This document shows positions 4,283-32,465 of a stretch of 42,401 bases of DNA, piece by piece. Every line of letters begins with the position of its first letter. The first letter of the stretch is position 1. Location: NCBI GenBank assembly GCA_014384555.1, contig JACNFR010000052.1, forward strand, positions 1 to 42,401. The letters run 5' to 3'. The DNA comes from Candidatus Nitrosopumilus sp. (GTDB lineage: Archaea; Thermoproteota; Nitrososphaeria; Nitrososphaerales; Nitrosopumilaceae). Position numbers and translations under genes: made by a program. A model generated the notes under the pieces. The model did no database searches. It had not been told where the DNA came from and saw nothing but the letters and a program-made list of their open reading frames with translations.

Positions 4283-4794
4283 ATAAACATTCAATCATTA
4301 CAATCATCGCAATCATTGTAATCATTGCACCATTTGCATATTCAGGAATGAGCATATTTGGAATGCAACAGCTAGAATATAGATGGGATAATCCAGGACG
4401 GTTTAGTTTTTTTACAATGTCTAATCATGGAAATGTAGAATTTTGTAATGCAATGCCATTTTGGATTAGTTTTGAAAAATTGCAAGTAACCACATATTAC
4501 GATGCAACCGATATAGGTTCATTTTCAGTAGACTCTCTTACAATTAATCCATTTTCATCAACCGTGCAAAAAGGATTATTTTCTTCTGAAGAATTATCTG
4601 CAGCACAACATATTTTCATGACATTGGACTTTGAGTTTGATGGTGGAGACATTAGACTTGATCCAAACAAGTTCATTGTCGTGATACGTGCAGATACACC
4701 AATCATTGGCGTAATTCCCTACTCAACTACAACTCAAATCACAGGATTTGATTTTGATCAGATAATGAATTCAGAAGATTTGACTTGTGATTAA
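4279..4794 (+). CDS. Membrane-anchored extracellular protein, unknown function
   Basis: A 171-residue protein with an N-terminal hydrophobic segment (residues 5-22) and a presumably extracytoplasmic beta-rich domain with no recognisable motif. The start is TTG 4279, which overlaps the TGA of the preceding gene by 3 nt; no ATG fits the hydrophobic N-terminus better. The stop overlaps tail-to-tail with the stop of the convergent gene at 4791. It is best seen as the second gene of a two-gene envelope operon. Confidence 0.7.
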   Translation: MNKHSIITIIAIIVIIAPFAYSGMSIFGMQQLEYRWDNPGRFSFFTMSNHGNVEFCNAMPFWISFEKLQVTTYYDATDIGSFSVDSLTINPFSSTVQKGLFSSEELSAAQHIFMTLDFEFDGGDIRLDPNKFIVVIRADTPIIGVIPYSTTTQITGFDFDQIMNSEDLTCD

Positions 4795-5720
4795 TTACTA
4801 CTCTTACTGGCTCTGGCGATTATTCCAAAAATTACTGCAACAATTCCAGCAATTACAAAGGCTACAACAAATCCCATCAGAGATTCTTTACCCATACCTT
4901 TGGAAGAACCAGATGATTGTGAAGTTGAATCAAGAACACATGCTCCATCTTTTAGAACAGTGCCAGGTCCACATCGTTCATCTAGGACACATGCACCATC
5001 TTTTAGAACAGTGCCAGGTCCACATTGAATTTTAGGGGTGTTATCCACAGGTGGTTCTACAGTTGGTGTTTCAACTACAGGTGGTTCTACAGTTGGTGTT
5101 TCAACTACAGGTGGTTCTACAGTTGGTGTTTCAACTACAGGTGGTTCTACAGTTGGTGTTTCAACTACAGGTGGTTCTACAGTTGGTGTTTCAACTACAG
5201 GTGGTTCTACAGTTGGTGTTTCAACTACAGGTGGTTCTACAGGTTCAGAAAGTATAGAGTTATTGAAAGATGTTCCTATAACATCTACTTCAATAGTTCC
5301 TGCAGGTAATTCAATATTCAAAGTTCTACTTAGAGAAGTAGTAGTTTCTGTAAAGACTAAGTCCTCACCGAATTGATTGATTATAATGAAAGGATCATCT
5401 TCACCTTCAAATGTAGAGTCTAAGAAGGAACGTTCTAAAACAAGATTTAGAATTCCAATTGAATCAGTTACATCTACAGTAAAGAGTAACGAACCAAATC
5501 CAGAATCAGATTCAACATCATCTACAGTGAATCCAGTAGCAGTATATTCAACATCAAAAGAAGTTCCTTCAACGTCAACAGACATTGTTTCTGCATATAC
5601 CAGGGCAGTTGAAAGCATAGTAAACAAGATTAGACCAAGCGAGATTTTCAATAAAGAACTAACACTGGGTAGCGATGTGTGTTTATCCGAGTATAGTTCC
5701 TTTACAGCGAAATTATTCAT
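4791..5720 (-). CDS. Repeat-containing surface protein with C-terminal TM anchor
   Basis: A 309-residue protein. Residues about 25-43 form a signal or anchor helix. A beta-type domain follows (about 45-155), then a low-complexity stalk of six to seven copies of the decapeptide VEPPVVETPT, then two copies of CGPGTVLKDGACVLD (each with two Cys, probably a small disulfide-bonded motif), and finally a C-terminal transmembrane helix (LMGFVVAFVIAGIVAVIFG) with a basic tail. The layout suggests a Pro-rich spacer holding a domain away from the membrane. The stop overlaps that of the convergent 4279 gene by 4 nt. Confidence 0.85.
   Translation of the reverse strand: MNNFAVKELYSDKHTSLPSVSSLLKISLGLILFTMLSTALVYAETMSVDVEGTSFDVEYTATGFTVDDVESDSGFGSLLFTVDVTDSIGILNLVLERSFLDSTFEGEDDPFIIINQFGEDLVFTETTTSLSRTLNIELPAGTIEVDVIGTSFNNSILSEPVEPPVVETPTVEPPVVETPTVEPPVVETPTVEPPVVETPTVEPPVVETPTVEPPVVETPTVEPPVDNTPKIQCGPGTVLKDGACVLDERCGPGTVLKDGACVLDSTSQSSGSSKGMGKESLMGFVVAFVIAGIVAVIFGIIARASKSSN
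5047..5243 (-). repeat. 30-bp coding tandem repeat (about 6.6 copies)
   Basis: The unit, plus strand ACAGGTGGTTCTACAGTTGG plus GTGTTTCAAC and T-phase variants, repeats every 30 bp with no base differences in the full copies. It encodes the VEPPVVETPT decapeptide. Perfect nucleotide identity indicates recent expansion or gene conversion, so copy number may vary between strains. Confidence 0.9.
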
Positions 5721-12051: not shown

Positions 12052-12552
12052 TTATTCTTTCTTTGGTGCTTCTTTAGCAGGTTCTTCTTTCTTTGGTGCT
12101 TCTTTAGCAGGTTCTTCTTTCTTTGGTGCTTCTTTAGCAGGTTCTTCTTTCTTTGGTGCTTCTTTAGCAGGTTCTTCTTTCTTTGGTGCTTCTTTAGCAG
12201 GTTCTTCTTTCTTTGGTGCTTCTTTAGCAGGTTCTTCTACATTGTCAGAAACTTTTTTGGCTTCTTTTTCAGGAGTTACTTTAGATTCTGCACCGTCATC
12301 ATATTTTGAAACAAGAACGTAACCTTCGTCAGTTTTACTCATTCTAACTCTAACTTTTCTTGGAGGATTTCTAACACCTCTTGCCCATATGTCACGAGCT
12401 AATTCTTCATCTATTTTGATTGTCTCAACTTTCATGTGATGTTGAGCAAATTCTCTAATCATGTTGATTGCTCTAACAGCCCTATGTTGGGATTGTGAAA
12501 GTTTTACTTTACCAAGTGGAATTGTATAAACTCGTTCTAATTCTTGAGACAT
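12052..12552 (-). CDS. rpl31e: 50S ribosomal protein L31e with repetitive Lys/Glu/Pro/Ala tail
   Basis: Residues 1-90 are a normal L31e (ERVYTIPLGKVKLSQSQHRA, then ARDIWARGVRNPPRKVRVRM). After about residue 92 there is a low-complexity extension with six copies of a 10-residue unit EEPAKEAPKK, giving 166 residues against roughly 90 for ordinary archaeal L31e. The tail is charged and probably disordered; it would project from the large subunit near the exit tunnel. It lies 2 nt after the L39e stop and forms a ribosomal operon with it. Confidence 0.95.
   Translation of the reverse strand: MSQELERVYTIPLGKVKLSQSQHRAVRAINMIREFAQHHMKVETIKIDEELARDIWARGVRNPPRKVRVRMSKTDEGYVLVSKYDDGAESKVTPEKEAKKVSDNVEEPAKEAPKKEEPAKEAPKKEEPAKEAPKKEEPAKEAPKKEEPAKEAPKKEEPAKEAPKKE
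12055..12237 (-). repeat. 30-bp coding tandem repeat in the rpl31e tail (6 copies)
   Basis: The plus-strand unit CTTTGGTGCTTCTTTAGCAG plus GTTCTTCTTT repeats every 30 bp from about 12055, identical in all full copies until the last diverges at about 12238. It encodes EEPAKEAPKK. Confidence 0.92.
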
Positions 12553-13373: not shown

Positions 13374-14111
13374 ATGACAATCAGGTATGAAGCTAATCCA
13401 CCTAAAATTTTACCTGGGGTAGATACAAATGAATCGATTCAAAAATTTATAGAAAAAATAAAAATAATTTCAAAAAAATGTGATGCAATTCATCTGACTG
13501 AAAATGTATTAGGGTTTCAAAGGGTATCTCCAATTGAAGTTGGAAAAATCATAAGAAAAGAAATCCCCAGTTTACCAATTACCGTAAGTCTCAGAGTTAG
13601 AGACAAGAGTGAAAAGGAAATTTTAGAATTTGTAGATAATTGCATCGCGATAGGATTTTCAGGGATTTTAATTCTAATGGGAGATCCATCCCAATCAGGT
13701 AAAGCAGATTCAGGCCAAATTCCAAGTGCTACTGCAAAGAGATTGAAACAACAAGGACTAGATTCCAAAATTGATCTATACCTTTCGATATCAAACAAAC
13801 CTAATTTCTCCAAAATCGGAAAAAAAATAGATGCAAATCCAAAAGGATTCATGACTCAAGTAATTCAAAACATAGAACAGGTTCAAAGTTTATCAGATAA
13901 TCTCAAAGAGTTTTCAATAATACCAATCATCCTATATCCATCAGATAAAAATGAAAAATCTGCAAAGTTTTTGAATTTAGATTTAGAATCATACAGTCAA
14001 AAATTTGAAGAATTGTTACAGAAAACACAAGAAATTACTGGAGATGTATTACTTACATCACCTAATGACTTCATTGGATTGAATGAATTTTTAGAAAAAC
14101 AATCCAATTAG
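13374..14111 (+). CDS. Short methylenetetrahydrofolate reductase-like protein (MetF family)
   Basis: A 245-residue TIM-barrel-type protein. The N-terminus YEANPPKILPG resembles the EF-PPK start of MetF. ITVSLRVRDKSEKEI and GILILMGDPSQSG fit the central strands, where MetF has a GD-P element near the flavin. It would make methyl-tetrahydropterin for methionine synthase, whose two subunit genes are convergent and adjacent. It is shorter than bacterial MetF (about 290 residues) and divergent, so the activity is inferred from the motifs and context. Its TAG overlaps the metH stop tail-to-tail by 4 nt. Confidence 0.75.
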   Translation: MTIRYEANPPKILPGVDTNESIQKFIEKIKIISKKCDAIHLTENVLGFQRVSPIEVGKIIRKEIPSLPITVSLRVRDKSEKEILEFVDNCIAIGFSGILILMGDPSQSGKADSGQIPSATAKRLKQQGLDSKIDLYLSISNKPNFSKIGKKIDANPKGFMTQVIQNIEQVQSLSDNLKEFSIIPIILYPSDKNEKSAKFLNLDLESYSQKFEELLQKTQEITGDVLLTSPNDFIGLNEFLEKQSN

Positions 14112-16606
14112 AGTACAAAATATTTTGCATCAGGGTGATGAATCACTATTGCTGCAGTAGATTGTTCAGGTATTATTTGCCCGGATTCAGTCAAAGTCAT
14201 TCCAGACTTTTCAGGTTGTAATAATTTCCATACTAGATGATGCTGTGCCACGTCAGGACAACTAGGGAATCCCCAACTATATCTCAACCCGCCTTTTTCT
14301 AAATTTAGTTCGGTTTTGATTCTCCGATTAACCCATTCAGCCAAAGCTTCTGCAACTTCAACTGCCAATCCATGAAGATAATATGCATCAGTGTATTTGT
14401 CCTCTTTATTCCACTGTTCAATGATATCTGCTACTTTATTGCCCACGGTTACTGATTGAAATGCAACCACATCATCATCACCAAAATAATCAGTTAGACA
14501 GAGATGGTCAGATTTTGTAGAACGAGGAAACTCCAACTCCACATCATCCCCGTGAGGATTTTCAACTAGTAATTTTCTATTTTTATTATGACATTTGAAA
14601 TACCCATAAACAATTTCAGGCTCTATGAGTTTATCTCGAATGATCCTCATCTTCCATTCAGTTAACAATTGTTCATGATCATCTTGAGATTCAGAACCTG
14701 CCTTTCCTCTCAAACCCCAAGATAATTTGAACAAGGATTTTTTATCAATCATAGTCCAAACTTCGGCCATATTGATTTGATCTAGTTTTAATCGGATTGG
14801 TTCTCCAATAATTTTTGGAGTGGGGGCTTGAACTGCCTTGACATCACTTTTTGGAAGAGTGTCAGGATCAACAGGAGCAGTTGATTTGTCTTTCCAGTTT
14901 TCTAACTTTACTTTCCAGTCATCTAGGAGCTTTTGTTTTTCATCTGAAACCAAAACATCCATTGTTTTGAGACCTTCGAACATAGTATTACAATAAAATA
15001 CACCGGGTTCGTATATTCCATCTTCTTTTGCTATTCTGTTAATGTAATTACTGTTAATTGCAGCACCACCACAAAGAATTGGAACAGTCATATTATTTTT
15101 TCTTGCATGTTCTACAAAGAACTTCATTTGTTTTGAGGTGGAAACTAGTAATGCAGATAATCCAATTGCATCAGGCTTTGTTTCATCAATTTTTTCAAGG
15201 AATTTTTGCAAGGGAACTTGTTTTCCCAAATCATGAACAGTGTATCCATTATTTTGAAAAATAGTTTTTACAAGATTTTTACCAATATCATGAACATCGC
15301 CATAAACAGTACCCAAAACGAATACACCCTTACTTGTTCCCTCTTCTTTGACCAAATATTTCTCCAATTCTCCAACTGAAGCCTTCATACATTCTGCAGA
15401 TTTTAGAACAAATGGTAGGATCAATTCACCTGAACCAAATTTGTCACCAACCTCTTTCATTGCAGGAAGCAAGTCCTCATTGAGCGTTTTAATGGCGCCA
15501 TCATGAGTAGACTCCTTTGGCAAATCAAGAGAAAGAACGCCATCAGTATCTTTGACAAGATCACTTTTCCCAAGTTTTTCTGCAATGGCAGATACAACAT
15601 CATTTTGAATTCCATCTTTTAGTCTATTTACAATTCTAAAGTTTGCACGTTTTCCTGCAGGCCAGGAAGGATCAACATCAACTTTCTTTGAAGCAGTAGT
15701 ACCTTGAGGTCCTGCATTTTCAAAATAAGTAATCAAATCAGACAAGGCATTTGGATGAGCATTAAAGATTAGATCGTCTGCAAGTTTTTTCTCTTTCTCG
15801 TCAATTTCACCATATGGGATTATCTCTTTTGCATTAACTATTGCACTATCAAGACCAATTTTGACTGCATGATACAAGAATGCAGAATTTAGAATTTTTC
15901 TAGCATGAGGTGAAAGACCAAAGCTAATGTTACTCAGGCCCAATGTTGTAAAACAATTTGGGAATTTTTCCTTAACTAATCTAATTCCTTCAAGAGTATT
16001 TTTCCCTGCATCAAGAAATTCATCCTCACCAGTTGCCAAAGTAAATGTAAGAACATCAAAAATAAACTGCTCAATTTTTAATCCATATTTTTTTCCTGTT
16101 TCATAAAGTAATTCAGCAGTGTCAACTTTTTGTTGAGCTGTTTTTGCCATACCTTCGGGACCAATGCACAATGCAATTGCAGGTAAGCCATATTTTGCCA
16201 TGATAGGAGCCAGTTTTTCAAATCTACTTCCATCACCTTCAAGATTTATTGAATTGATTATTGGTCTTCCAGGAATTTGAGTAACTGATGCTTCAATGAC
16301 TTCAGGATCAGTGGAATCAATTACAAGCGGAGCATCAATTTCTAAGCTTAATCTTTTAACTAAATTTAACATAAACTCTTTTTCATCTGCACGTTCAGTT
16401 GTTGCAACACAAACATCAAGACAGTGTGCACCATCCTCAACTTGCATTCTACCCAAATCAACTAATCCATCAAAATCATCTTCAAGAACTAGCTTCTTTG
16501 CTTTACGAGAACCTTGAGTGTTGATTCTTTCACCAATGATTAAAGGAGCAGGAACTTGCTTCAAATCAACTGCTTTTAGTGCTGAACTTACTCTTGGAAC
16601 TTTCAA
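14108..16606 (-). CDS. metH: Cobalamin-dependent methionine synthase, C-terminal polypeptide
   Basis: An 832-residue protein containing MetH modules 2-4. A pterin-binding (DHPS-like) barrel starts IIGERINTQGSRKAK. A cobalamin module has YGDVHDIGKNLVKTI, including the His that ligates cobalt. A C-terminal reactivation domain has LRYSWGFPSCPD and FPRSTKSDHLCLTDYF. The homocysteine-binding module is absent and is encoded just upstream as a separate protein, so the enzyme is split in two. The gap to the upstream gene is 32 nt, so the two form an operon. It makes methionine from homocysteine using methyl-tetrahydropterin. Confidence 0.95.
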   Translation of the reverse strand: MKVPRVSSALKAVDLKQVPAPLIIGERINTQGSRKAKKLVLEDDFDGLVDLGRMQVEDGAHCLDVCVATTERADEKEFMLNLVKRLSLEIDAPLVIDSTDPEVIEASVTQIPGRPIINSINLEGDGSRFEKLAPIMAKYGLPAIALCIGPEGMAKTAQQKVDTAELLYETGKKYGLKIEQFIFDVLTFTLATGEDEFLDAGKNTLEGIRLVKEKFPNCFTTLGLSNISFGLSPHARKILNSAFLYHAVKIGLDSAIVNAKEIIPYGEIDEKEKKLADDLIFNAHPNALSDLITYFENAGPQGTTASKKVDVDPSWPAGKRANFRIVNRLKDGIQNDVVSAIAEKLGKSDLVKDTDGVLSLDLPKESTHDGAIKTLNEDLLPAMKEVGDKFGSGELILPFVLKSAECMKASVGELEKYLVKEEGTSKGVFVLGTVYGDVHDIGKNLVKTIFQNNGYTVHDLGKQVPLQKFLEKIDETKPDAIGLSALLVSTSKQMKFFVEHARKNNMTVPILCGGAAINSNYINRIAKEDGIYEPGVFYCNTMFEGLKTMDVLVSDEKQKLLDDWKVKLENWKDKSTAPVDPDTLPKSDVKAVQAPTPKIIGEPIRLKLDQINMAEVWTMIDKKSLFKLSWGLRGKAGSESQDDHEQLLTEWKMRIIRDKLIEPEIVYGYFKCHNKNRKLLVENPHGDDVELEFPRSTKSDHLCLTDYFGDDDVVAFQSVTVGNKVADIIEQWNKEDKYTDAYYLHGLAVEVAEALAEWVNRRIKTELNLEKGGLRYSWGFPSCPDVAQHHLVWKLLQPEKSGMTLTESGQIIPEQSTAAIVIHHPDAKYFVL

Positions 16607-16638
16607 TGTAGTAAAATCATCTCTGTTTTTCTAAATAC

Positions 16639-17625
16639 TTAACCCTCGATAAGGTTGGCTTTTTCGTCAATTACTTTTCTCAATGCCCTGATGTGTTCAG
16701 GATTTGTTCCACAGCAACCACCGATGATTCGAACTTTTTTGTAGTCATCAAGGAAATCACCTAATACATCACCCATTTTATCGGGAGTCATTTTGTAAAC
16801 TGCTTGTCCGCCATCATTTTCAGGCATGCCAGCATTTGGTACCACCAATATGTTATGTTCATCTTGTTCATTTAACCACTGAACACTGGGATTCATCTCA
16901 ATAGGCCCAGTAGAGCAATTCAAACCAAAAACATCAATTCCCATATCAGAGACAGTTGTGTATGCTGCTTGAATATTTGTGCCAAGCAACATTTTCCCAT
17001 ATTGATCCAACGTAGTATTTGCAATAATTGGAACTTTTTTATCGATTTTTTTCATAGCGTTGTGGCATGCCTCTATAACTAATTTAACTTCTAGAATATC
17101 TTGACTTGTTTCAATTAACAGTGCGTCTACACCTCCAAGAATTAATCCTTCAGCTTGCAATTCAAATGCTTCACGAATTGTATCAAGCGATATTTGGCCT
17201 AAATCAGGATCATTAGAACTTGGAAGATATCCTGTTGGACCCATAGACCCAATTACATATCGTGGTTTATCTGAATATTCTGCACAAACTTCAGATGCAA
17301 GAGATGCAATTTTTTTATTGAATTCAATAGTTTGATCACCAAAACCATATTCATCAAGTTTAATTTTATTTGAACCAAAAGAATTAGTTTCTATGCAATC
17401 AGAACCAGCATCTAAATAATTTCTATGAATCTCTTTAATCCATTCAGGATGTGTAATTATCAATCCATCATTAAACCCATCTTGATTATTTGGAAAGTCT
17501 TCAGGTTTAGGATCATGTCTTTGGATTTCAGTTCCCATTGCACCGTCAAACAATAAAACTCTATTTTTCATTGCATCAAGAAAAGGCTCTTTTTCTGTCA
17601 ATGTAATTTTAAAACATTTCAACAT
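16639..17625 (-). CDS. Methionine synthase homocysteine-binding subunit (MetH N-terminal module)
   Basis: A 328-residue homocysteine S-methyltransferase barrel. It has the N-terminal LLFDGAMGTEIQR, and the zinc cysteines lie in FGLNCSTGP and in the terminal GGCCGTNPEHI. Together with the following gene it supplies a complete MetH in two chains. The length equals one module, and both chains end and start at domain boundaries, so this is a natural gene split and not a frameshift. ATG 17625 gives a short N-terminal lead; ATG 17571 (MKNRVLLFDGAMG) is an alternative start. Confidence 0.93.
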   Translation of the reverse strand: MLKCFKITLTEKEPFLDAMKNRVLLFDGAMGTEIQRHDPKPEDFPNNQDGFNDGLIITHPEWIKEIHRNYLDAGSDCIETNSFGSNKIKLDEYGFGDQTIEFNKKIASLASEVCAEYSDKPRYVIGSMGPTGYLPSSNDPDLGQISLDTIREAFELQAEGLILGGVDALLIETSQDILEVKLVIEACHNAMKKIDKKVPIIANTTLDQYGKMLLGTNIQAAYTTVSDMGIDVFGLNCSTGPIEMNPSVQWLNEQDEHNILVVPNAGMPENDGGQAVYKMTPDKMGDVLGDFLDDYKKVRIIGGCCGTNPEHIRALRKVIDEKANLIEG

Positions 17626-23240: not shown

Positions 23241-23341
23241 CATCGAATTTTAGCTCAAGCTAGTCAGAAATTTTTTAAAAATAATTTATTTTGAGCCTAT
23301 CACAAAAGATAAATTCCAAAATACGACGGGAAAGATGTTTT

Positions 23342-24541
23342 ATGACTCAAAAAGGAATTCTTGCATTTTCTGGCGGATTAGATACATCAGTTGTTGTGAA
23401 ATATCTTCAGGATGAACACGATATGGACGTCATTACAGTAACCGTAGATGTTGGACAAGGTGATGATTGGAAAAAGATTGCAGCAAAAGCAAAAAAACTT
23501 GGCGTAAAAAAACACTACAATATTGATGCAAGAGAAGAATTTGTCAAAGATTACATTTTTCCATCAATTAAAGCAAATGCTCTTTATCAAAAAAAATATT
23601 GTCTTGCTACTGCCCTCGCTAGACCATTAATTGCAGAAAAAGTTTTAGAGATTGCAAAAAAAGAAAAAGTAACATCACTTGCACATGGTTGTTCTGGAAA
23701 AGGAAATGATCAAGTAAGATTTGATATCACATTGCGTTCAGGTTCTGATCTTCCAATCATAGCCCCTATACGGGATAAAAATTTGGATAGAGATACAGAA
23801 TTAAAGTTTGCAAAAAAACACGGAATAGAAATTGACACTGTCGCTAAAAAATTCAGCATTGATCAAAACTTGTGGGGTCGCGCAATAGAAGGAGGCGTGT
23901 TAGAGGATCCATATAATGAACCACCTGATGATGCATTTATTTGGGTTAAAACAAAAAATTTACCAGACAAACCAACATACTTGGAAATTAAATTCAATAA
24001 AGGAATTCCAGTAGAAGTGGATGGAAAAACAATGGAACCTCTAAAACTTATTGAATATATTAACAAAAAAGCAGGTAATGCAGGTGTTGGAATAGTTGAT
24101 CATATTGAAGACAGGGTTGTTGGAATCAAATCTCGCGAAGTATATGAAACTCCAGCAGCAGCATGTCTAATTGAAGCTCATACAGATTTGGAAAAAATGG
24201 TTCACACCAAACATGAAAATAAATTCAAATCAATGATTGATGATGAATGGGCATATTTGGTCTATTCAGGACTTTGGCAAGATCCTCTCAAAACAGATCT
24301 GGATGGATTCATCGAGGCATCACAAAAATCAGTTTCAGGAACAGTGAAGCTAAAAATGTACAAAGGAAGTCTCAGAGTTGTCGGAAGAAAGTCCAATAAT
24401 TCATTGTACAGTCACGATATTGCAACTTATGGCGTAGAATCAACATTTGATCAAAGATTGGCCAAAGGATTCGTAGAATTATGGGGAATGCAGTCAACAG
24501 AAGCTAATAAATTACAAAAGAAAAGGTCTACAAAAACATGA
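23342..24541 (+). CDS. argG: Argininosuccinate synthase
   Basis: About 399 residues, the normal family length. The N-terminus ILAFSGGLDTSVVVKYL is the PP-loop that binds ATP; HGCSGKGNDQVRF is a second signature. It condenses citrulline and aspartate to argininosuccinate. ATG 23342 is chosen over TTG 23291 because the family starts close to the PP-loop. The stop overlaps the lysW1 start (ATGA). It is the first gene of the arginine operon; argH and argF are not in the window. Confidence 0.95.
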   Translation: MTQKGILAFSGGLDTSVVVKYLQDEHDMDVITVTVDVGQGDDWKKIAAKAKKLGVKKHYNIDAREEFVKDYIFPSIKANALYQKKYCLATALARPLIAEKVLEIAKKEKVTSLAHGCSGKGNDQVRFDITLRSGSDLPIIAPIRDKNLDRDTELKFAKKHGIEIDTVAKKFSIDQNLWGRAIEGGVLEDPYNEPPDDAFIWVKTKNLPDKPTYLEIKFNKGIPVEVDGKTMEPLKLIEYINKKAGNAGVGIVDHIEDRVVGIKSREVYETPAAACLIEAHTDLEKMVHTKHENKFKSMIDDEWAYLVYSGLWQDPLKTDLDGFIEASQKSVSGTVKLKMYKGSLRVVGRKSNNSLYSHDIATYGVESTFDQRLAKGFVELWGMQSTEANKLQKKRSTKT

Positions 24542-24705
24542 ACTGCCCAGAATGTGATGCAACATTAAACATCCCAGACGATGCCTCAGTAGGAGAAATT
24601 GTCTCCTGTCCTGATTGTGGCGCTGACTTTGAAATCGCAAAAAAAGATGGATCAAATGTCGAGCTTAAACAAGCAGAAACCGTAGGCGAAGACTGGGGAG
24701 AGTAA
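24538..24705 (+). CDS. lysW: LysW-type amino-group carrier protein (first copy, Glu C-terminus)
   Basis: A 55-residue acidic protein. Four zinc cysteines form two pairs (CPEC at 3-6, CPDC at 24-27), and the conserved tail is EDWGE. In the LysW system the gamma-carboxylate of this last Glu is joined to the amino group of 2-aminoadipate or glutamate, protecting it during the later steps. Overlaps argG by 4 nt (ATGA) and lysX1 by 1 nt (TAATG), so the three are coupled. Its position beside argG suggests the arginine/ornithine branch. Confidence 0.93.
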   Translation: MNCPECDATLNIPDDASVGEIVSCPDCGADFEIAKKDGSNVELKQAETVGEDWGE

Positions 24706-25562
24706 TGTCAAAAGTTTGTATTGTCTTTGACCGCTTAAGAGCGGAAGAAAAGATGCTACAAAAAGAAGCATCTGAATTAGGACATGATGTATTGATGTTA
24801 GATGCAAAAATCACTCAGATCAATACGGATAGTAAAAAGGAAGATTTTGATTTGGGAGATGTTGTTTTGGAAAGATGTGTTAGTTATTTCAGAGGCCTTC
24901 ATTTTACAGCTAGTCTAGAATTTATGAACATTCCAGTATTGAACAAATTTGAAGTTGCAAATATTTGTGGAAATAAAATGTTCATGACATTACTTTTGAA
25001 AAAAAATAACATTCCAACACCAAAAACATATTTTTCATTTTCAAGTGAAAGTGCCGCAGAAAATTTAGAAAAAGTAGGATTTCCACTAGTAATAAAACCA
25101 GTAATTGGAAGTTGGGGAAGAGGAGTAATGCCACTTAAAGATAAAGATACCATGGAGGCAGTTTTTGAAATCAGAGACATTACAGATAGCCCTCATGATA
25201 GAATTTACTATTTGCAAGAATTAATCCAAAGACCGCCAAGAGACATCAGAGTGATTACGGTAGGAGATGAGCCCATTGCAGCAATGTATAGAAAATCTTC
25301 AGGTGGATTCAAAACAAATATCGCTCTAGGAGCAGATCCAGAACTTTGTGAGATCACAAAAGAGATGGAGGATATGGCAGTAAAAGCATCAAAAGCCATG
25401 GGGGGTGGAATTTTAGGAATAGACATGATGGAAGACGACCAAAGAGGCCTGGTAGTACATGAAGTTAACAATACAGTAGAATTCAAAGGGTTGGCAAGAG
25501 TTGCACAACGAAACATACCAAAAGAAATGATAGAATTTGCTTTAAACCACGTAAGAAAATAA
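24705..25562 (+). CDS. LysW-amino acid ligase, LysX/ArgX family (first copy)
   Basis: A 285-residue RimK-like ATP-grasp ligase that attaches an amino acid to the C-terminal Glu of LysW with ATP. Visible are VIKPVIGSWGRGVMPL (ATP-binding region), QRPPRDIRV and VVHEVNNTVEFKG (metal and substrate region). Placed directly after lysW1 and before argC/argB/argD, it most likely acts on glutamate (ArgX role). The substrate assignment is from context; the equivalent segment in the second copy is NTTEYKN. Confidence 0.88.
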   Translation: MSKVCIVFDRLRAEEKMLQKEASELGHDVLMLDAKITQINTDSKKEDFDLGDVVLERCVSYFRGLHFTASLEFMNIPVLNKFEVANICGNKMFMTLLLKKNNIPTPKTYFSFSSESAAENLEKVGFPLVIKPVIGSWGRGVMPLKDKDTMEAVFEIRDITDSPHDRIYYLQELIQRPPRDIRVITVGDEPIAAMYRKSSGGFKTNIALGADPELCEITKEMEDMAVKASKAMGGGILGIDMMEDDQRGLVVHEVNNTVEFKGLARVAQRNIPKEMIEFALNHVRK

Positions 25563-25589: not shown

Positions 25590-26636
25590 ATGAAAGTAGG
25601 AGTTGTAGGAGCATCAGGATATGTAGGAGGAGAAACACTTCGTCTTCTAGTAAATCATCCAGATGTAGAAATCGCAATGGTCACATCAAGACAACATGTA
25701 GGAGAATATCTCCACAGAATCCAACCAAGTTTGAAAGGATTTACCGATCTCACTTTTTCAGAATTAGATTATGATAAATTAACAGACAAGTGTGATGTTG
25801 TATTTACCGCAGTACCTCATGGAACTGCAACTGAAATTGTAAAGGCCCTCTACGATAGAGGAGTCAAAGTAATTGATTTGAGTGCAGACTATAGATTGCA
25901 CAATCAAGACGCATATGACAAATGGTATGGTTGGGAACATCCACATCCAGACTATTTAGAAAAATCAGTTTTCGGAGTACCAGAATTACATAGAGAGAAA
26001 ATTAAAAATGCACAACTAGTTTCTTGTCCAGGTTGTATGGCAGTTACATCAATGCTTGCACTTGCACCATTGATCAAAAATAATCTAATTGATGAAGAAC
26101 ATATCATTGTGGATTCAAAAATAGGTTCATCAGGAGCAGGTTCTGGTTCAGGAACAGCTCATGCAATGAGAGCAGGAGTGATTAGACCATACAAGCCAGC
26201 AAAACATAGACACACAGGTGAAATCGAACAAGAGCTTAGTGAAATTGCAGGACATAAAATTCGTGTATCAATGAGTCCACATGCAGTAGATGTAGTGAGA
26301 GGTATTTTGTGTACAAATCACACATTCTTGAAAAAAGATATTGAAGAAAAAGAACTATGGAAAATATATCGTCAAGCATACGGTGAAGAAAGATTTGTTA
26401 GATTAATTAGAGATAAAAAAGGATTGTACAAATTCCCAGATCCAAAATTCTTAGTAGGTTCAAACTTTTGTGATATTGGATTTGATTTAGATGAAGATAA
26501 CAATAGATTGATTGCACTTTCTGCATCAGATAACTTGATGAAAGGTGCAGCTGGTTCTGCTATTCAAAACATGAATGTAATGTGTGGTTTTGATGAAATG
26601 GACGGACTAAGATACACGCCATTAACTCCTGTTTAG
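25590..26636 (+). CDS. argC: LysW-aminoadipate/glutamate semialdehyde dehydrogenase (ArgC/LysY)
   Basis: A 348-residue NADPH-dependent reductase: GASGYVGGETLRLL is the Rossmann start and SCPGCMAVTSMLAL holds the catalytic Cys. SSGAGSGSGTAH is also typical. It reduces the acyl phosphate on the carrier-bound substrate. Only one copy is present, so it probably serves both arginine and lysine synthesis. A GGGGT-type ribosome-binding sequence precedes ATG 25590. Confidence 0.92.
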   Translation: MKVGVVGASGYVGGETLRLLVNHPDVEIAMVTSRQHVGEYLHRIQPSLKGFTDLTFSELDYDKLTDKCDVVFTAVPHGTATEIVKALYDRGVKVIDLSADYRLHNQDAYDKWYGWEHPHPDYLEKSVFGVPELHREKIKNAQLVSCPGCMAVTSMLALAPLIKNNLIDEEHIIVDSKIGSSGAGSGSGTAHAMRAGVIRPYKPAKHRHTGEIEQELSEIAGHKIRVSMSPHAVDVVRGILCTNHTFLKKDIEEKELWKIYRQAYGEERFVRLIRDKKGLYKFPDPKFLVGSNFCDIGFDLDEDNNRLIALSASDNLMKGAAGSAIQNMNVMCGFDEMDGLRYTPLTPV

Positions 26637-26638
26637 AA

Positions 26639-27442
26639 ATGATCACAATCAAAATTGGTGGAAGTGTAGTGGATGATTTACATCCATCAACGATTTTAGA
26701 TATTAAAAAAATAGCAGAAACTGAAGGAATTATAATTGTTCATGGCGGAGGAAAAGAAGTTACCAAAGTATGCGAACAACTTGGAAAAGAACCAAAATTC
26801 GTAACATCACCAAGTGGCATTAAGAGCAGATATACAGACAAAGAAACTGCAGAAATTTTCACCATGGTGATGTCAGGTAGAATCAATAAAACAATTGTCC
26901 AAATGCTTCAGAAAAATGGTATTAATGCAATTGGACTTTCAGGAGTCGATGCAAAGGTCATTCAAGCAGATAGAAAAAAGAAATTACTCATAGTTAATGA
27001 AAAAGGTAGAAAACAAGCAATTGATGGAGGATACACAGGGAAAATCAGAGAAGTTAATTCAAAATTCATCTTATCACTTTTAGAGCAAGGTCTCACGCCT
27101 GTAATTTCACCCATTGCAATTAGTGAAGAATCAGAATTTCTCAACATCGATGGAGACAGGGCTGCAGCATATGTTGCAGGTAAAGTTGGTTGTGATAAAG
27201 TATTATTCATCACAAATGTAGATGGATTATTAATGGATGACAAACTTGTTCCAAAACTAACATTGGCAGAAGCAAAAGAGATTAGACCAAAAATTGGACC
27301 TGGAATGGAAAAAAAGATTTTGGCATCAACTGAAGCTCTAGATATGGGAGTGAAAGAAGCATTGATTGGAAATGGACAAAGAGAAAACCCAATTTCATCA
27401 GCAATTGCACATGATAATTGTACGGTGATTGAACATGAGTGA
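26639..27442 (+). CDS. argB: LysW-aminoadipate/glutamate kinase (ArgB/LysZ)
   Basis: A 267-residue amino acid kinase. The N-terminal IKIGGSVVDDL and IIVHGGGKEVTKV form the phosphate-binding glycine loops, and NIDGDRAAAYVAGKVG with ITNVDGLL completes the family pattern. It phosphorylates the side-chain carboxylate of the carrier-bound substrate. It is 2 nt after argC and overlaps the start of argD by 8 nt. It is the single copy in the window and presumably shared by both branches. Confidence 0.92.
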   Translation: MITIKIGGSVVDDLHPSTILDIKKIAETEGIIIVHGGGKEVTKVCEQLGKEPKFVTSPSGIKSRYTDKETAEIFTMVMSGRINKTIVQMLQKNGINAIGLSGVDAKVIQADRKKKLLIVNEKGRKQAIDGGYTGKIREVNSKFILSLLEQGLTPVISPIAISEESEFLNIDGDRAAAYVAGKVGCDKVLFITNVDGLLMDDKLVPKLTLAEAKEIRPKIGPGMEKKILASTEALDMGVKEALIGNGQRENPISSAIAHDNCTVIEHE

Positions 27443-28616
27443 AGACCAATTTATGGGAAATCTATATCAAAGATTTCCAGTAACAATTGAAAAAGGTGAA
27501 GGATCTCATGTATGGGATATCGATGGAAAAGAATACATCGATTGTATGGGAGGGTATGGAGTAGCTTTAGTTGGCCATAAAAACAAAAAAGTCAATGATG
27601 CAATCAAAGAACAGATTGATAAAATAATTACAGTTCACAGTTCCCTATACAATAAAACCAGAGAAGAATTTTTGACAACCCTTATAGGTTTAGCACCAAA
27701 AGGTTTGACACAAGTTCATCTAAACAACAGTGGTGCTGAAGCTATAGAAGCTGCAATGAAATTTGCAAGAAAGTTTACAGGAAAAAAAGGAATGGTCGCA
27801 ATGAAAGGATCATACCATGGAAAATCATTTGGAGCATTATCATTAACATTTAATCCAAAATATAGAAAAGCATTTGCACCACTAGTAGAGAAAGTTTCTT
27901 TTGCATCGTTTGGAGACATGGAATCATTACGTTCAGTAATTGATGATGATACAGCATTTGTGATTTTAGAACCTATTCAAGGTGAAAGTGGAATTGTTGT
28001 TGCACCTGAAGGATTTTTACAAGAAGTTAGAAAACTTTGTGACGAAAAAGGAATCGTGTTAATTTTTGACGAAATACAAGCTGGTTTAGGTAGAACAGGA
28101 CGATTATGGGCATGTGATCATTGGAATACTGCACCTGACATCTTGTGTCTTGCAAAAGGAATTGCAGGAGGAGTACCAATGGGTGCAACTCTTGTAAGAC
28201 CAGATATCTTAGCTTCAATTACTAAAGGCGAACATTCATCTACATTTGGAGGTAATCCAATATCTTGTGCAGCAGGAACTGCAGCTCTTAAAGCAATTAC
28301 AGAAGATGGTTTAATTGAGAATGCAGATAAGATGGGAAAACTATTCAGAGAAGGTTTAGAAAAATTAAAAGAGAAACACGATATGATTAGAGAGATTAGA
28401 GGCAAAGGCCTCATGATAGGAATTGAGATGAAATTTGAGGTTAAAGATATCTTGATGGGATTAATCAAAAAAGGAGTTTTAATGCTCTATTCTGGAAGAA
28501 ACATCCTCAGAATTCTCCCTCCATTAGTAATATCAGAAGATGACGTAACAAAAGTTTTACATGCTCTGGATTCAGTACTAACAGAAGAGGAAGAAAAAAG
28601 AAATGTACAAGGATAA
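27435..28616 (+). CDS. argD: LysW-lysine/ornithine aminotransferase (ArgD/LysJ)
   Basis: A 393-residue class III PLP aminotransferase. The PLP lysine lies in CLAKGIAGGVPMGAT, with IFDEIQAGLGRTGRLWA before it and NSGAEAIEAAMKFARK near the N-terminal phosphate site. It transaminates the carrier-bound semialdehyde. ATG 27435 fits better than TTG 27429. It overlaps argB upstream and the Lrp-type regulator downstream (14 nt), so it is deep in the operon. Confidence 0.93.
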   Translation: MSEDQFMGNLYQRFPVTIEKGEGSHVWDIDGKEYIDCMGGYGVALVGHKNKKVNDAIKEQIDKIITVHSSLYNKTREEFLTTLIGLAPKGLTQVHLNNSGAEAIEAAMKFARKFTGKKGMVAMKGSYHGKSFGALSLTFNPKYRKAFAPLVEKVSFASFGDMESLRSVIDDDTAFVILEPIQGESGIVVAPEGFLQEVRKLCDEKGIVLIFDEIQAGLGRTGRLWACDHWNTAPDILCLAKGIAGGVPMGATLVRPDILASITKGEHSSTFGGNPISCAAGTAALKAITEDGLIENADKMGKLFREGLEKLKEKHDMIREIRGKGLMIGIEMKFEVKDILMGLIKKGVLMLYSGRNILRILPPLVISEDDVTKVLHALDSVLTEEEEKRNVQG

Positions 28617-29022
28617 AGTAGATGAAAAAATTATCGGGTATCTAAAAGAAGATTCCAGAGAGTCATTTGTAGACATAGGGAAAAAACTAAAACTATCAGA
28701 ATCTGCAGTTAGAAGACGTGTAAAGAATTTAGTAGACAGCGGAACTATTAAGAAATTCACTTTGGAAATTGGAGAAGAAAATACCACTAGTGCAATTGTT
28801 TTAGTTTCAGTAGATTCTGCAACAGATACATCCAAGGTATCACTAAAACTTGCAAAATTAGATGGGGTGAAAACAGTTTATGAGATTACTGGTCAATATG
28901 ACATTACAACTATAATGAGTGCAACAAATATTGCAGAAATTAATTCCACCATTGACGCTCTAAGGAAAATTCCAGGAGTAGTAGATACCAACACAGTCAT
29001 AATTTTAAGAAAAATTATCTAA
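28603..29022 (+). CDS. lysM: Lrp/AsnC-family transcriptional regulator (LysM-like)
   Basis: A 139-residue protein: an N-terminal winged helix-turn-helix (LKEDSRESFVDIGKKLKLSE, then SAVRRRVKNL) and a C-terminal RAM/ACT-type domain that binds amino acids (ITGQYDITTIMSATNIAEI). Located at the end of the arg/lys operon, it resembles LysM of Sulfolobus, the Lrp-like regulator of lysine synthesis. It may sense lysine or arginine and regulate this operon or the following one; no operator can be named from the sequence. Confidence 0.9.
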   Translation: MYKDKVDEKIIGYLKEDSRESFVDIGKKLKLSESAVRRRVKNLVDSGTIKKFTLEIGEENTTSAIVLVSVDSATDTSKVSLKLAKLDGVKTVYEITGQYDITTIMSATNIAEINSTIDALRKIPGVVDTNTVIILRKII

Positions 29023-29121: not shown

Positions 29122-30315
29122 ATGTCAACGATATCAGTAATGAAAGATCCGAATCACTATGCAAACATATACAACGCATATGAAAAAAATCCAAAGAAAA
29201 TTAGAATTTTGGATAGTACTCTAAGAGAAGGTGAGCAACATCCAGGTGTTTCATTTACGAATAAACAAAGAATTCAGATTGCATGGATGTTAGATTATTT
29301 TGGTGTTGATCAAATTGAAATTTCCCCAGTAGTGTCTAACGATCATAAAGAAGCAACTAAAACAATTATCAAACAAGGGTTAAAAGCTGACATTGTTTCC
29401 CACGGACGTGCACTCAAATCAGATATAGACATTTCATTAGATTGTGATGCAAAATGGTGTGCAGCATATTTGGGAATTTCAGATATTCATCTAAAAGATA
29501 AATTAAGAATTTCAAGGGAAGAAGCACTTGAAAGGGCAGTAGAAACTGTAGAATATGCAAAATCCCATGGACTAAAAATTAGATTCACAGTGGAAGATGG
29601 AAGTAGAGCAGAACCAGAATTTCTATTAAAAGTTTGCAAAGCTATCGAAGAGGCAGGAGTTGATAGAATTAGTCTCCCAGATACTGTAGGAATTCTACGT
29701 CCAATTGGAATGTATAATTTTGTTAAAAAAGTAAAAGAGGTTGTAGATGTGCCATTAGATGCACATGTGCATAATGACATTGGTTTTGCAGTAGCAAATG
29801 CATTTTCAGCATGTGATGCAGGAGTAGATCAAATTCACACTACAATTGACGGAATTGGAGAAAGAACAGGAATTCCTCCCCTTGCAGAAGTGGCAGTAGC
29901 ATTAACTTATCTTTACAAATCACCAAACGATTTCAGGTTAGACATGTTACTTGACTTGTCTAGATTAATTGAAGAATACACATCGATTACACCATATGAC
30001 TCTAAACCCATAGTAGGTTCATCAGCTTACAAACACAAAGCAGGCACACATCTTGCAGCAATTCTTCGAAATCCTGCAGCCTATGAGCCAATTCCTCCTA
30101 GAGCAGTTGGAAATAGGCGAAAGATAGTGTTCGGAGAATTGGCAGGAAAAACAGGTGCAGCATATTTGATGTCCCTTTTAGGATTGGAAAAGAACGATGA
30201 AGGTGCAAAAGCTGTCGCTGCAGGGTTAAAGGGTCTAAGAATGGGTGATCTCATAGAGATCCCTCTAGAAGACAGACTTGAAAAAAAGATAATTAATGAT
30301 AAATTAGAGGAGTAA
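29122..30315 (+). CDS. lysS: Homocitrate synthase (2-isopropylmalate synthase family)
   Basis: A 397-residue DRE-TIM metallolyase-family enzyme. ILDSTLREGEQHPGVSF carries the catalytic Arg and metal site, and DAHVHNDIGFAVANAFSACD the metal HxH region. EQHPGVSF and GERTGIPPL favour homocitrate synthase over isopropylmalate synthase, as does the placement before lysW2-lysX2-lysK. It would start lysine synthesis via 2-aminoadipate. A TATA-like GTTTATATC at 29105-29113 lies too close to ATG 29122 but 31 nt before ATG 29140 (MKDPNHYAN), so the shorter start is possible. Confidence 0.87.
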   Translation: MSTISVMKDPNHYANIYNAYEKNPKKIRILDSTLREGEQHPGVSFTNKQRIQIAWMLDYFGVDQIEISPVVSNDHKEATKTIIKQGLKADIVSHGRALKSDIDISLDCDAKWCAAYLGISDIHLKDKLRISREEALERAVETVEYAKSHGLKIRFTVEDGSRAEPEFLLKVCKAIEEAGVDRISLPDTVGILRPIGMYNFVKKVKEVVDVPLDAHVHNDIGFAVANAFSACDAGVDQIHTTIDGIGERTGIPPLAEVAVALTYLYKSPNDFRLDMLLDLSRLIEEYTSITPYDSKPIVGSSAYKHKAGTHLAAILRNPAAYEPIPPRAVGNRRKIVFGELAGKTGAAYLMSLLGLEKNDEGAKAVAAGLKGLRMGDLIEIPLEDRLEKKIINDKLEE

Positions 30316-30327
30316 CGAAGAGAGAAT

Positions 30328-30495
30328 ATGTCAAAATGTGAAGAATGTGATGCAGATATTTCCATCCCAAGTGATGCACTTGAAGGAGAAATCGTAACAT
30401 GTCCGGAATGTGGCGCAAGTTTTGAATTGTCTAAAGGTTCAAGCGGTTTCGATCTAAAGCCGGCCCAAACGGTTGGCGAGGATTGGGGACAGTGA
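30328..30495 (+). CDS. lysW2: LysW-like carrier protein, second copy, with Gln in place of the acceptor Glu
   Basis: A 55-residue acidic protein of the same design as lysW1: four Cys in two CxxC pairs (CEEC at 4-7, CPEC at 25-28) and the tail TVGEDWG. Its last codon is CAG, so the chain ends EDWGQ, while the family ends EDWGE. The gene lies between homocitrate synthase and the second ligase, and its TGA overlaps the GTG start of that ligase (GTGA), so it looks functional and coupled. Either the Gln is converted to Glu, or the carrier works differently, or it is not an acceptor. Confidence 0.9.
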   Translation: MSKCEECDADISIPSDALEGEIVTCPECGASFELSKGSSGFDLKPAQTVGEDWGQ

Positions 30496-31334
30496 ATCCT
30501 GACGTTACCATTCTTTACGATACCATCCGTTGGGAAGAAAAAGCTCTGTTAGAAGCAGGCAAAAAAAAGAACATCAACATTCAGATGGTCGATTGTAAAA
30601 AATTGGCAATAGATTTAGAAAAAAAACCTGAAGATTATGGTGTAGTTATTCAGAGATGCGTGAGCTATTATAGAAATTTACACTCAACTGCAGCTCTTGA
30701 AGGATTAGGTGTCAAAGTTATCAATTGTCTCAACACAGGAGTTTTTGCAGGAAATAAATTATTTACACATATGTTATTAAAAAAATTCGGGGTTCCAACA
30801 CCAGATGCAACTGTAGCCTTTTCAAAAGATGCAGCACTTGAAGCATTAGATTCACAAGGATATCCAAGAGTGATAAAACCTACAGTTGGTAGTTGGGGAA
30901 GATTAATTTCAAAATTAAATGAAAGAGATGCAGCTGAAGGAATTATTGAAAGCAGAGAGAATATGTATCCAATTTATCAAGTTCATTATTTAGAAGAATT
31001 TGTACAAAGACCACCAAGAGACATTAGAGCAATCATGGTAGGAGATAAGATAGTTGCAGCAATTTATCGTTCATCTAAACATTGGAAAACCAACATGGCA
31101 CTTGGAGGAACAGCTGAGCCATGTGAAGTAACACAAGAGATGGAAGAGATGTGTATTAAAGCAAAACATGCAATTCAAGGAGATATCGTAGGTGTAGATT
31201 TGATGGAAAGCGATGAGAAAGGACTAGTTGTACATGAGGTAAACAATACAACAGAATACAAAAACACAGTTAGAGTGTGTGAAGTGGATATTCCTTCCTT
31301 AATGCTAGACTATGCACTGAAGATAGAAAAGTAA
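30492..31334 (+). CDS. lysX: LysW-amino acid ligase, LysX family (second copy)
   Basis: A 280-residue RimK-like ATP-grasp protein starting at GTG 30492, in a GTGA overlap with lysW2. Visible are VIKPTVGSWGRLISKL, QRPPRDIRAIMVGD and VHEVNNTTEYKNTVR. Its place between homocitrate synthase and the LysK-type hydrolase suggests it loads 2-aminoadipate (LysX role) while the copy at 24705 serves glutamate. The two copies are clearly related but differ in the substrate-region segment. The partner LysW2 ends in Gln, so which carrier it uses is open. Confidence 0.88.
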   Translation: MNPDVTILYDTIRWEEKALLEAGKKKNINIQMVDCKKLAIDLEKKPEDYGVVIQRCVSYYRNLHSTAALEGLGVKVINCLNTGVFAGNKLFTHMLLKKFGVPTPDATVAFSKDAALEALDSQGYPRVIKPTVGSWGRLISKLNERDAAEGIIESRENMYPIYQVHYLEEFVQRPPRDIRAIMVGDKIVAAIYRSSKHWKTNMALGGTAEPCEVTQEMEEMCIKAKHAIQGDIVGVDLMESDEKGLVVHEVNNTTEYKNTVRVCEVDIPSLMLDYALKIEK

Positions 31335-31337
31335 GAA

Positions 31338-32465
31338 TTGGACACTAATTTCACAGTAACACCAAGATTTGCAGTCAAGATGCTAGAGAAAGCACTTAGA
31401 CTTTACACTCCATCACTGAGTGAAAAACCAATGGCAGAATTTTTGGCAGACAAATGTGATGATTTAGGATTTGAGGATATTCAGATAGATGAAGTGGGTA
31501 ATGTAATTGCAAAAAAAGGTTCTGGATCTCCAAAAATTATGTTATGTGGACATATGGATGTAGTACCAGGGAAGGTCAAAGTTAGAAAAGAGGGAGATTC
31601 ACTTTATGGTAGAGGAGCATCAGATGCAAAAGCACCATTAATGGCAATGTTATTTGCTGCAGCTTCAATTCAAAATAATAATGGAACCGTATTTTTTGTC
31701 GGAGCAGTAGATGAAGAAGGCAATGCCACAGGTATTAAAAATTTAGTTAAGAAAAAGATGGATATCGATTACGCAATTTTTGGAGAACCAAGTGGAATTA
31801 AACAAGTAACAATCGCATACAAAGGAAGATTGGCAATAAATCTCAAAATCAGCGTACCAGATAGCTCTCATGCAAGTGCACCATGGTTGTCAAAAAATGC
31901 AATTTTAGAATCTATGATATTTGCAAGGGAATTAAAAGAAAAACTAGAAGCAAATCAAGAAAGTAAAACTAAAGGAATGTTATTGACAGCTACAATGACT
32001 GAAGTGAAAGGAGGAACAAGTCACAATGTTACTCCAAAAGATTGTGAAACAACTTTTGATATTAGAATCCCAGTAGATATGAATTGTAAAACAATTGAAC
32101 AAAAAATTTCAACACTTGTCAAAGAAATATCTCAAGAAAGAGATGTCGAAGCATTTTATTCAATTTTAGATGAAACTGAACCCTTTGAAGCTCCTCATAA
32201 TTCAGCACTAGTCAGAGCTTTTACTCTAGGGATTATGGAAACTGAGCATTCAAGACCCACTTTAATTAGAAAAACAGGAACTGGAGACATGAATGTTCTC
32301 GGGAATCAATGGAAAATTCCAGTTGTAACTTATGGACCAGGAGATCCTCACGAAGCCCATACAATTGATGAGAAAGTTTCAATAGATGAATATCTCAGAG
32401 GAATAGAAATTCTCAAGAAAACACTACAGCATTTAAAAAGACTTCATGATAAAAATATTCAATAA
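31338..32465 (+). CDS. lysK: LysW-lysine/ornithine hydrolase (LysK, M20 peptidase family)
   Basis: A 375-residue M20-family metallopeptidase. Metal ligands appear in LCGHMDVVPG (His), YGRGASDAKAP (Asp), GAVDEEGNATG (catalytic Glu and metal Glu) and FGEPSG. It would release lysine, and probably ornithine, from the carrier. TTG 31338 is the likely start, 3 nt after the lysX2 stop; ATG 31380 would delete the first 14 residues. Its last base is shared with the first base of the dphB start codon (TAATG). Confidence 0.9.
   Translation: MDTNFTVTPRFAVKMLEKALRLYTPSLSEKPMAEFLADKCDDLGFEDIQIDEVGNVIAKKGSGSPKIMLCGHMDVVPGKVKVRKEGDSLYGRGASDAKAPLMAMLFAAASIQNNNGTVFFVGAVDEEGNATGIKNLVKKKMDIDYAIFGEPSGIKQVTIAYKGRLAINLKISVPDSSHASAPWLSKNAILESMIFARELKEKLEANQESKTKGMLLTATMTEVKGGTSHNVTPKDCETTFDIRIPVDMNCKTIEQKISTLVKEISQERDVEAFYSILDETEPFEAPHNSALVRAFTLGIMETEHSRPTLIRKTGTGDMNVLGNQWKIPVVTYGPGDPHEAHTIDEKVSIDEYLRGIEILKKTLQHLKRLHDKNIQ

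Follow-up and report, generated by a model that had tools for sequence, protein, structure and literature searches.

The closest described relatives of the protein analyzed here are the amino-group carriers LysW of Thermus, Sulfolobus and Thermococcus and ArgW of Natrinema. These are small zinc-ribbon proteins with four cysteines and an acidic EDWG tail that are encoded beside a LysX or ArgX ligase together with a LysYZJK gene set, and they all end in glutamate (structures 3vpb, 3wwl and 5k2m; PMC10433800). The terminal glutamate is essential in Natrinema, where the argW(E54A) mutation causes arginine auxotrophy (PMC10433800), in support of the statement in an initial annotation of this DNA that the known LysW proteins are loaded on the gamma-carboxylate of this residue. 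The second of the two LysW-type carriers encoded in the 42,401-nucleotide stretch of Candidatus Nitrosopumilus DNA that we analyzed (hereafter, the window) shares the zinc ribbon, the four cysteines, the tail and the gene neighborhood of these proteins but ends in glutamine. The attachment residue is the very position that the known chemistry needs, yet abundant ammonia-oxidizing archaea encode and conserve another residue there.

A full-text search of 5.39 million PMC papers found no mention of EDWGQ or of a Gln-ended LysW. In its passages on LysW, a metabolic model of N. maritimus that invokes this carrier names one LysW gene (Nmar_1287), located beside ArgX, and does not mention the Gln end (PMC6038301). 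Apparently, the Gln-ended LysW and any step that would activate it are undescribed in the literature.

The lysW2 gene and its operon

The genes of the operon in the window, in their order, and the terminal codons of lysW2 are as follows.

23291..24541, +: argG, argininosuccinate synthase (open reading frame and sequence reading; syntenic in relatives)
24538..24705, +: lysW1, 55-residue carrier ending EDWGE (translation; NF041070, 93.4 bits, cut-off 75)
24705..25562, +: argX, first LysX-type ligase, with the arginine-type motif EFKGLA (TIGR02144, 295 bits; motif rule)
25590..26636, +: lysY, reductase (open reading frame; homologs in all related operons)
26639..27442, +: lysZ, LysW-aminoadipate/LysW-glutamate kinase (NF010662, 301 bits)
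27435..28616, +: lysJ, aminotransferase (TIGR00707, 438 bits)
28603..29022, +: Lrp-like regulator (sequence reading; same place in related operons)
29122..30315, +: gene of the homocitrate/isopropylmalate synthase family, likely homocitrate synthase (TIGR02146, 381 bits, just under the cut-off of 413; operon position)
30328..30495, +: lysW2, 55-residue LysW-type carrier ending EDWGQ (translation; NF041070; PF21344; Gln kept in relatives)
30490..30495, +: CAG TGA, terminal Gln codon and stop of lysW2 (sequence)
30492..31334, +: lysX2, RimK-family ATP-grasp ligase with the lysine-type motif EYKNTV (TIGR02144, 327 bits; motif rule)
31338..32465, +: lysK, M20-family amidase, candidate LysW2-Gln deamidase (TIGR01902, 277.5 bits, cut-off 163)

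Positions 30328-30492 translate to MSKCEECDADISIPSDALEGEIVTCPECGASFELSKGSSGFDLKPAQTVGEDWGQ, followed by TGA; the EDWGQ end and the last codon, CAG, are as initially annotated. The stop codon overlaps the GTG start of lysX2 (CAGTGAATCCTGAC) at 30492, an overlap that recurs in the Nitrosopumilaceae loci read. The location described for lysW2, between homocitrate synthase and a LysX-type ligase with a GTGA overlap, was likewise recovered, the synthase being assigned to the homocitrate/isopropylmalate-synthase family with a profile score below the cut-off. LysW2 scores 88.6 bits against the NCBIfam model carrier_LysW_Arch (NF041070, cut-off 75) and 45.1 bits against Pfam PF21344 (cut-off 27); its translation contains the four cysteines of the zinc ribbon, as CEEC and CPEC, and retains the EDWG tail, as VGEDWGQ. 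The gene shares its operon with LysX, LysY, LysZ, LysJ and LysK genes, and the terminal Glu that characterizes LysW carriers is replaced by an encoded Gln (CAG), here and in nearly all LysW2 relatives. From its sequence, we class LysW2 as a LysW in which one of the defining features differs, a variant that would work like LysW. The gene looks functional, as the initial annotation noted.

According to the rule that separates lysine-type ligases (Asn-Thr) from arginine-type ones (Gly-Phe in Sulfolobus; PMC10433800), the first ligase, with a Gly-Leu motif, resembles the arginine type, and LysX2, with Asn-Thr, is predicted to be of the lysine type. The best PDB match of the lysX2 product is the LysX-family chain 3vpd. 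LysZ, LysY, LysJ and LysK are encoded in one copy each in this operon, alongside the two carriers.

Elsewhere in the window, on the minus strand, methionine-synthase-like functions appear, on sequence reading, to be split over two adjacent open reading frames (16639-17625 and 14108-16606, within 14108-17625). Also on this strand are genes for a secreted-looking protein with PPVVETPTVE repeats (4791-5720) and for a small basic protein that carries a series of EEPAKEAPKK repeats at its C-terminus (12052-12552).

Distribution of the terminal glutamine

All of an initial set of 30 lysW2 copies, mostly from the same genus, end in CAG-TGA (L001, L003-L031), and Gln ends LysW2 in each of 20 other genera of the window's family. 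When 398 Thermoproteota genomes were scanned, EDWGQ followed by a stop was present in 62 of the 63 genomes of this family, and the LysW1-type end, EDWGE, in 61 of the 63. Over the whole set, the EDWGQ-stop pattern matched 88 genomes, a few of them spuriously, compared with about four for the reversed-pattern control. Because TGG also fits the stop pattern TRR, the match in G510 and one of the two in G383 are spurious; those at L062, L146, L148, L163, L178 and L179 are chance matches. With a longer tail pattern applied to the named contig collection, 58 of the 63 matching contigs contained a LysW gene, in nearly every case within an arginine/lysine operon; this pattern demanded Val, Ile or Met before the tail and a TAA or TAG stop, a restriction under which Gln-ended LysWs of bacteria or Euryarchaeota may have been missed.

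Gln-ended LysWs were seen in Nitrosopumilaceae, Nitrososphaera, Nitrosocosmicus, Nitrosocaldus and genomes labeled Caldarchaeum or Aigarchaeota. Three entries in the collection carry a LysW and neighboring genes of the Nitrosocosmicus/Nitrososphaeraceae type under other titles, namely, two Nitrosopumilus sp. MGR bins (L159, L173) and bacterium ES-bin-123 (L182), and the titles or bins look wrong.

Among 105 LysWs selected by homology rather than by the tail pattern, 74 end in Gln, 31 in Glu and none in any other residue, including the single-base neighbors Lys, Val, Gly, Asp and Leu. Both Gln codons, CAG and CAA, occur among the relatives, indicating that conservation acts at the protein level. 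On this evidence, the protein appears to be under selection for either of two residues whose sole difference is an amide.

The window comes from a draft genome of 84 contigs, and one relative reads GAG at the last codon of LysW2, as might be expected of a sequencing, assembly or annotation artefact or of relaxed drift in a dying gene. Against such an origin, numerous independent genomes share the Gln, some of them complete and in a single contig, the end is never other than Gln or Glu, and both Gln codons are used; we give this explanation virtually no credence, and sequencing error in particular is ruled out by the conservation across genomes and the restriction of the ends to Gln and Glu. 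The initial annotation had proposed that GAG or GAA in relatives would betray such an error. GAG does occur in a congener, G143, the sole exception among the 63 family genomes; it reflects repeated exchange of Gln and Glu rather than an error. Likewise ruled out is the possibility that the GTG overlap with lysX2 forces CAG: GAGTGA, as in G143, preserves the start, and Gln persists where there is no overlap (CAATAA, CAGTAA).

Glutamine-only genomes and glutamine-glutamate exchange

Three complete genomes of the genus g24 (G476, a single contig of 2,989,777 bases, G500 and G383) encode one LysW each, which is Gln-ended; a LysW search to E = 1 did not find a second copy. The g24 loci L185 and L204 keep argG, argX, lysY, lysZ, lysJ, the synthase, lysW2, lysX2 and lysK, with LysW1 absent between argG and argX. 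The same arrangement, without LysW1, is found in named Nitrosocosmicus contigs (L128, L137, L141 and L165), and clustering in the ligase tree suggests that g24 is Nitrosocosmicus. A member of this genus, N. franklandus, grows axenically on inorganic medium (PMC4830249). Nitrososphaera-type genomes have two LysWs, both Gln-ended, and Caldarchaeum-type genomes have one, also Gln-ended, with LysX, LysY, LysZ and LysK nearby; within the window's own family, G015 has Gln-ended LysWs only.

Every DAP route to lysine needs DapB, which was absent in all 13 genomes tested (the control was positive in 11 of 14 reference genomes). Hence Gln-only organisms, if they make lysine, most likely do so on a Gln-encoded carrier, and we infer that the Gln-only genomes make lysine and arginine by the LysW route and that the individual organisms are prototrophic. 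Because some cultivated lineages appear to be Gln-only, lysine/arginine synthesis must include either a step that activates the carrier or a new way of attaching the substrate. A non-acceptor role, one of the options raised in the initial annotation, is very unlikely for the Gln-ended LysW because this form occurs throughout the order and several DapB-less lineages have no other carrier; as a general answer, it is ruled out by the existence of Gln-only genomes, which keep argX, lysX, lysYZJ and lysK.

A narrower version of that option concerns the window's family, where Glu-ended LysW1 is nearly universal and might carry both pathways, like the single LysW of Sulfolobus, such that LysW2 need carry nothing and could act as a regulator, a chaperone or a decoy for LysX2. 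However, Nitrosocosmicus-type genomes have no LysW other than the LysW2 at this operon position, G015 belongs to the family and is Gln-only, LysW2 has lost none of the LysW features, the EDWG tail among them, and LysW2 of G143 ends in Glu. We consider a non-acceptor LysW2 improbable in this family as well.

The two terminal residues have been exchanged at least 11 times on the tree of 149 neighboring ligases. The genera g63 and g79 each contain both Gln-ended and Glu-ended LysW, and the ligase of G143 shares 94% identity with its counterpart in a Gln genome. In g63, the gene order around the two forms is identical, and comparison of the neighborhoods in this genus found no extra gene beside LysW, a candidate deamidase, accompanying the Gln form. 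A comparison of the ligases, which has low power, found no residue tracking the Gln/Glu difference among those listed.

Tabulation of the last residue by genomic context, as suggested in the initial annotation, yielded Gln or Glu only, with no general tie to the lysine branch. Gln as a mark of that branch is ruled out since the ArgX-side LysW of Nitrososphaera-type genomes is also Gln-ended, and two Nitrososphaerales archaea, TH526 and TH703 (L135, L150), show the reverse arrangement, with Gln on the ArgX-side LysW and Glu on the LysX-side one. In g79, two complete genomes with a single LysW each, G317 (L092) and G282 (L205), differ in the terminal residue; their neighboring ligase is of the arginine type, the LysYZJK genes are not nearby, and a LysK homolog is encoded elsewhere in the genome.

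The repeated exchange also bears on the possibility that the ligase uses the alpha-carboxylate of the terminal Gln as the attachment point for the substrate, which would make deamidation unneeded. LysX2 belongs to the same ligase family as RimK, the enzyme of ribosomal protein S6 glutamylation; RimK adds to alpha-carboxylates, and such a group is always present at a C-terminus. Under this scheme, though, the single LysZ, LysY, LysJ and LysK would have to serve both gamma-linked LysW1 adducts and alpha-linked LysW2 adducts, and other terminal residues should be tolerated, of which there are none among the 105 LysWs. In addition, Gln and Glu replace each other between closely related genomes, and none of the ligase residues listed follows the change. 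Attachment to the alpha-carboxylate therefore appears unlikely.

A possible activation step and its parallels

By analogy with Pup, the terminal Gln of LysW2 is probably hydrolyzed to Glu before the ligase loads the carrier. LysW2 would then be made as a pro-form that becomes a working amino-group carrier after activation: the C-terminal Gln would be converted to Glu once, early in the life of the protein, LysX2 would attach alpha-aminoadipate to the gamma-carboxylate thus formed, and LysZ, LysY, LysJ and LysK would act as usual. Release of lysine by LysK would leave LysW-Glu, so that one deamidation per LysW molecule would be enough. The single LysZ/LysY/LysJ/LysK set, the exchange of Gln and Glu without a tracking ligase residue and the shared gene order in g63 all favor conversion to the common form by something that is always present; switches between forms, including those between near-identical relatives, with no tracking residue in the low-power ligase comparison, are what a convergence of both forms on Glu would predict.

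The most economical deamidase would be LysK, which is encoded directly after lysX2. By family, LysK cleaves a gamma-amide at the terminal residue, and Gln would present the same bond, with ammonia as the leaving group. A LysK-family protein was found in all 20 genomes searched, and it occurs alongside Glu-ended LysWs as well, so its presence is not specific to the Gln form. The assignment of the deamidation to LysK is the weakest part of the proposal, and we put it forward tentatively. Two known kinds of protein deamidase are ruled out as the general agent: Dop/PafA (PF03136) was found in none of 11 genomes (the Corynebacterium control was positive), and CheD, a receptor glutamine deamidase that acts on protein Gln, in one of 11 genomes with a Gln-ended LysW, which excludes it as a general LysW deamidase.

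Alternatively, the ligase might exchange the amide directly, by phosphorylating the carboxamide oxygen of Gln and letting the amine displace ammonia, to give the gamma-linked product in one step. No separate deamidase would be needed, and none was found in the g63 neighborhood or in the Dop/PafA and CheD searches. We know of no chemical precedent for this reaction among ATP-grasp ligases. For Dop acting on PupQ, the Gln side-chain carbonyl has been suggested to attack the gamma-phosphate of ATP (PMC8599861). Given that LysK would leave Glu after the first cycle, the ligase would have to use Glu anyway, and no ligase feature marking Gln partners was seen in the low-power comparison; direct exchange seems highly improbable.

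To return to activation by deamidation, a simple conversion of Gln to Glu would be expected to allow freer drift between the two residues, yet Gln is retained in LysW2 across nearly the whole order, as is Glu in LysW1 within the window's family. Presumably, Gln confers some advantage, perhaps control over the timing of carrier activation.

The comparison with Pup made in the initial annotation proved a good lead and suggests deamidation of LysW by analogy. Pup of actinobacteria, too, is a small protein with a C-terminal acceptor that is Gln or Glu depending on the lineage, Glu being required for ligation (PMC8599861); the corresponding numbers for LysW are 74 and 31. The two proteins are unrelated in sequence, and Pup is a degradation tag whereas LysW is a metabolite carrier. 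The Pup system includes Dop/PafA, which the 11 genomes searched for it lack, and the likeness would thus be one of working, not of membership. In that system, a single hydrolase, Dop, cleaves the amide as well as the conjugate, deamidating PupQ and removing Pup from substrates (PMC8599861). It is quite possible, if short of probable, either that LysK similarly performs the deamidation of the carrier and the release of the product, as a convergent counterpart of Dop/Pup in primary metabolism, or that the ligase acts directly on the amide or on the alpha-carboxylate. Direct use of either group would be new chemistry for the loading of amino-group carriers; deamidation, if it occurs, would extend the Gln-to-Glu activation of a C-terminal acceptor beyond pupylation.
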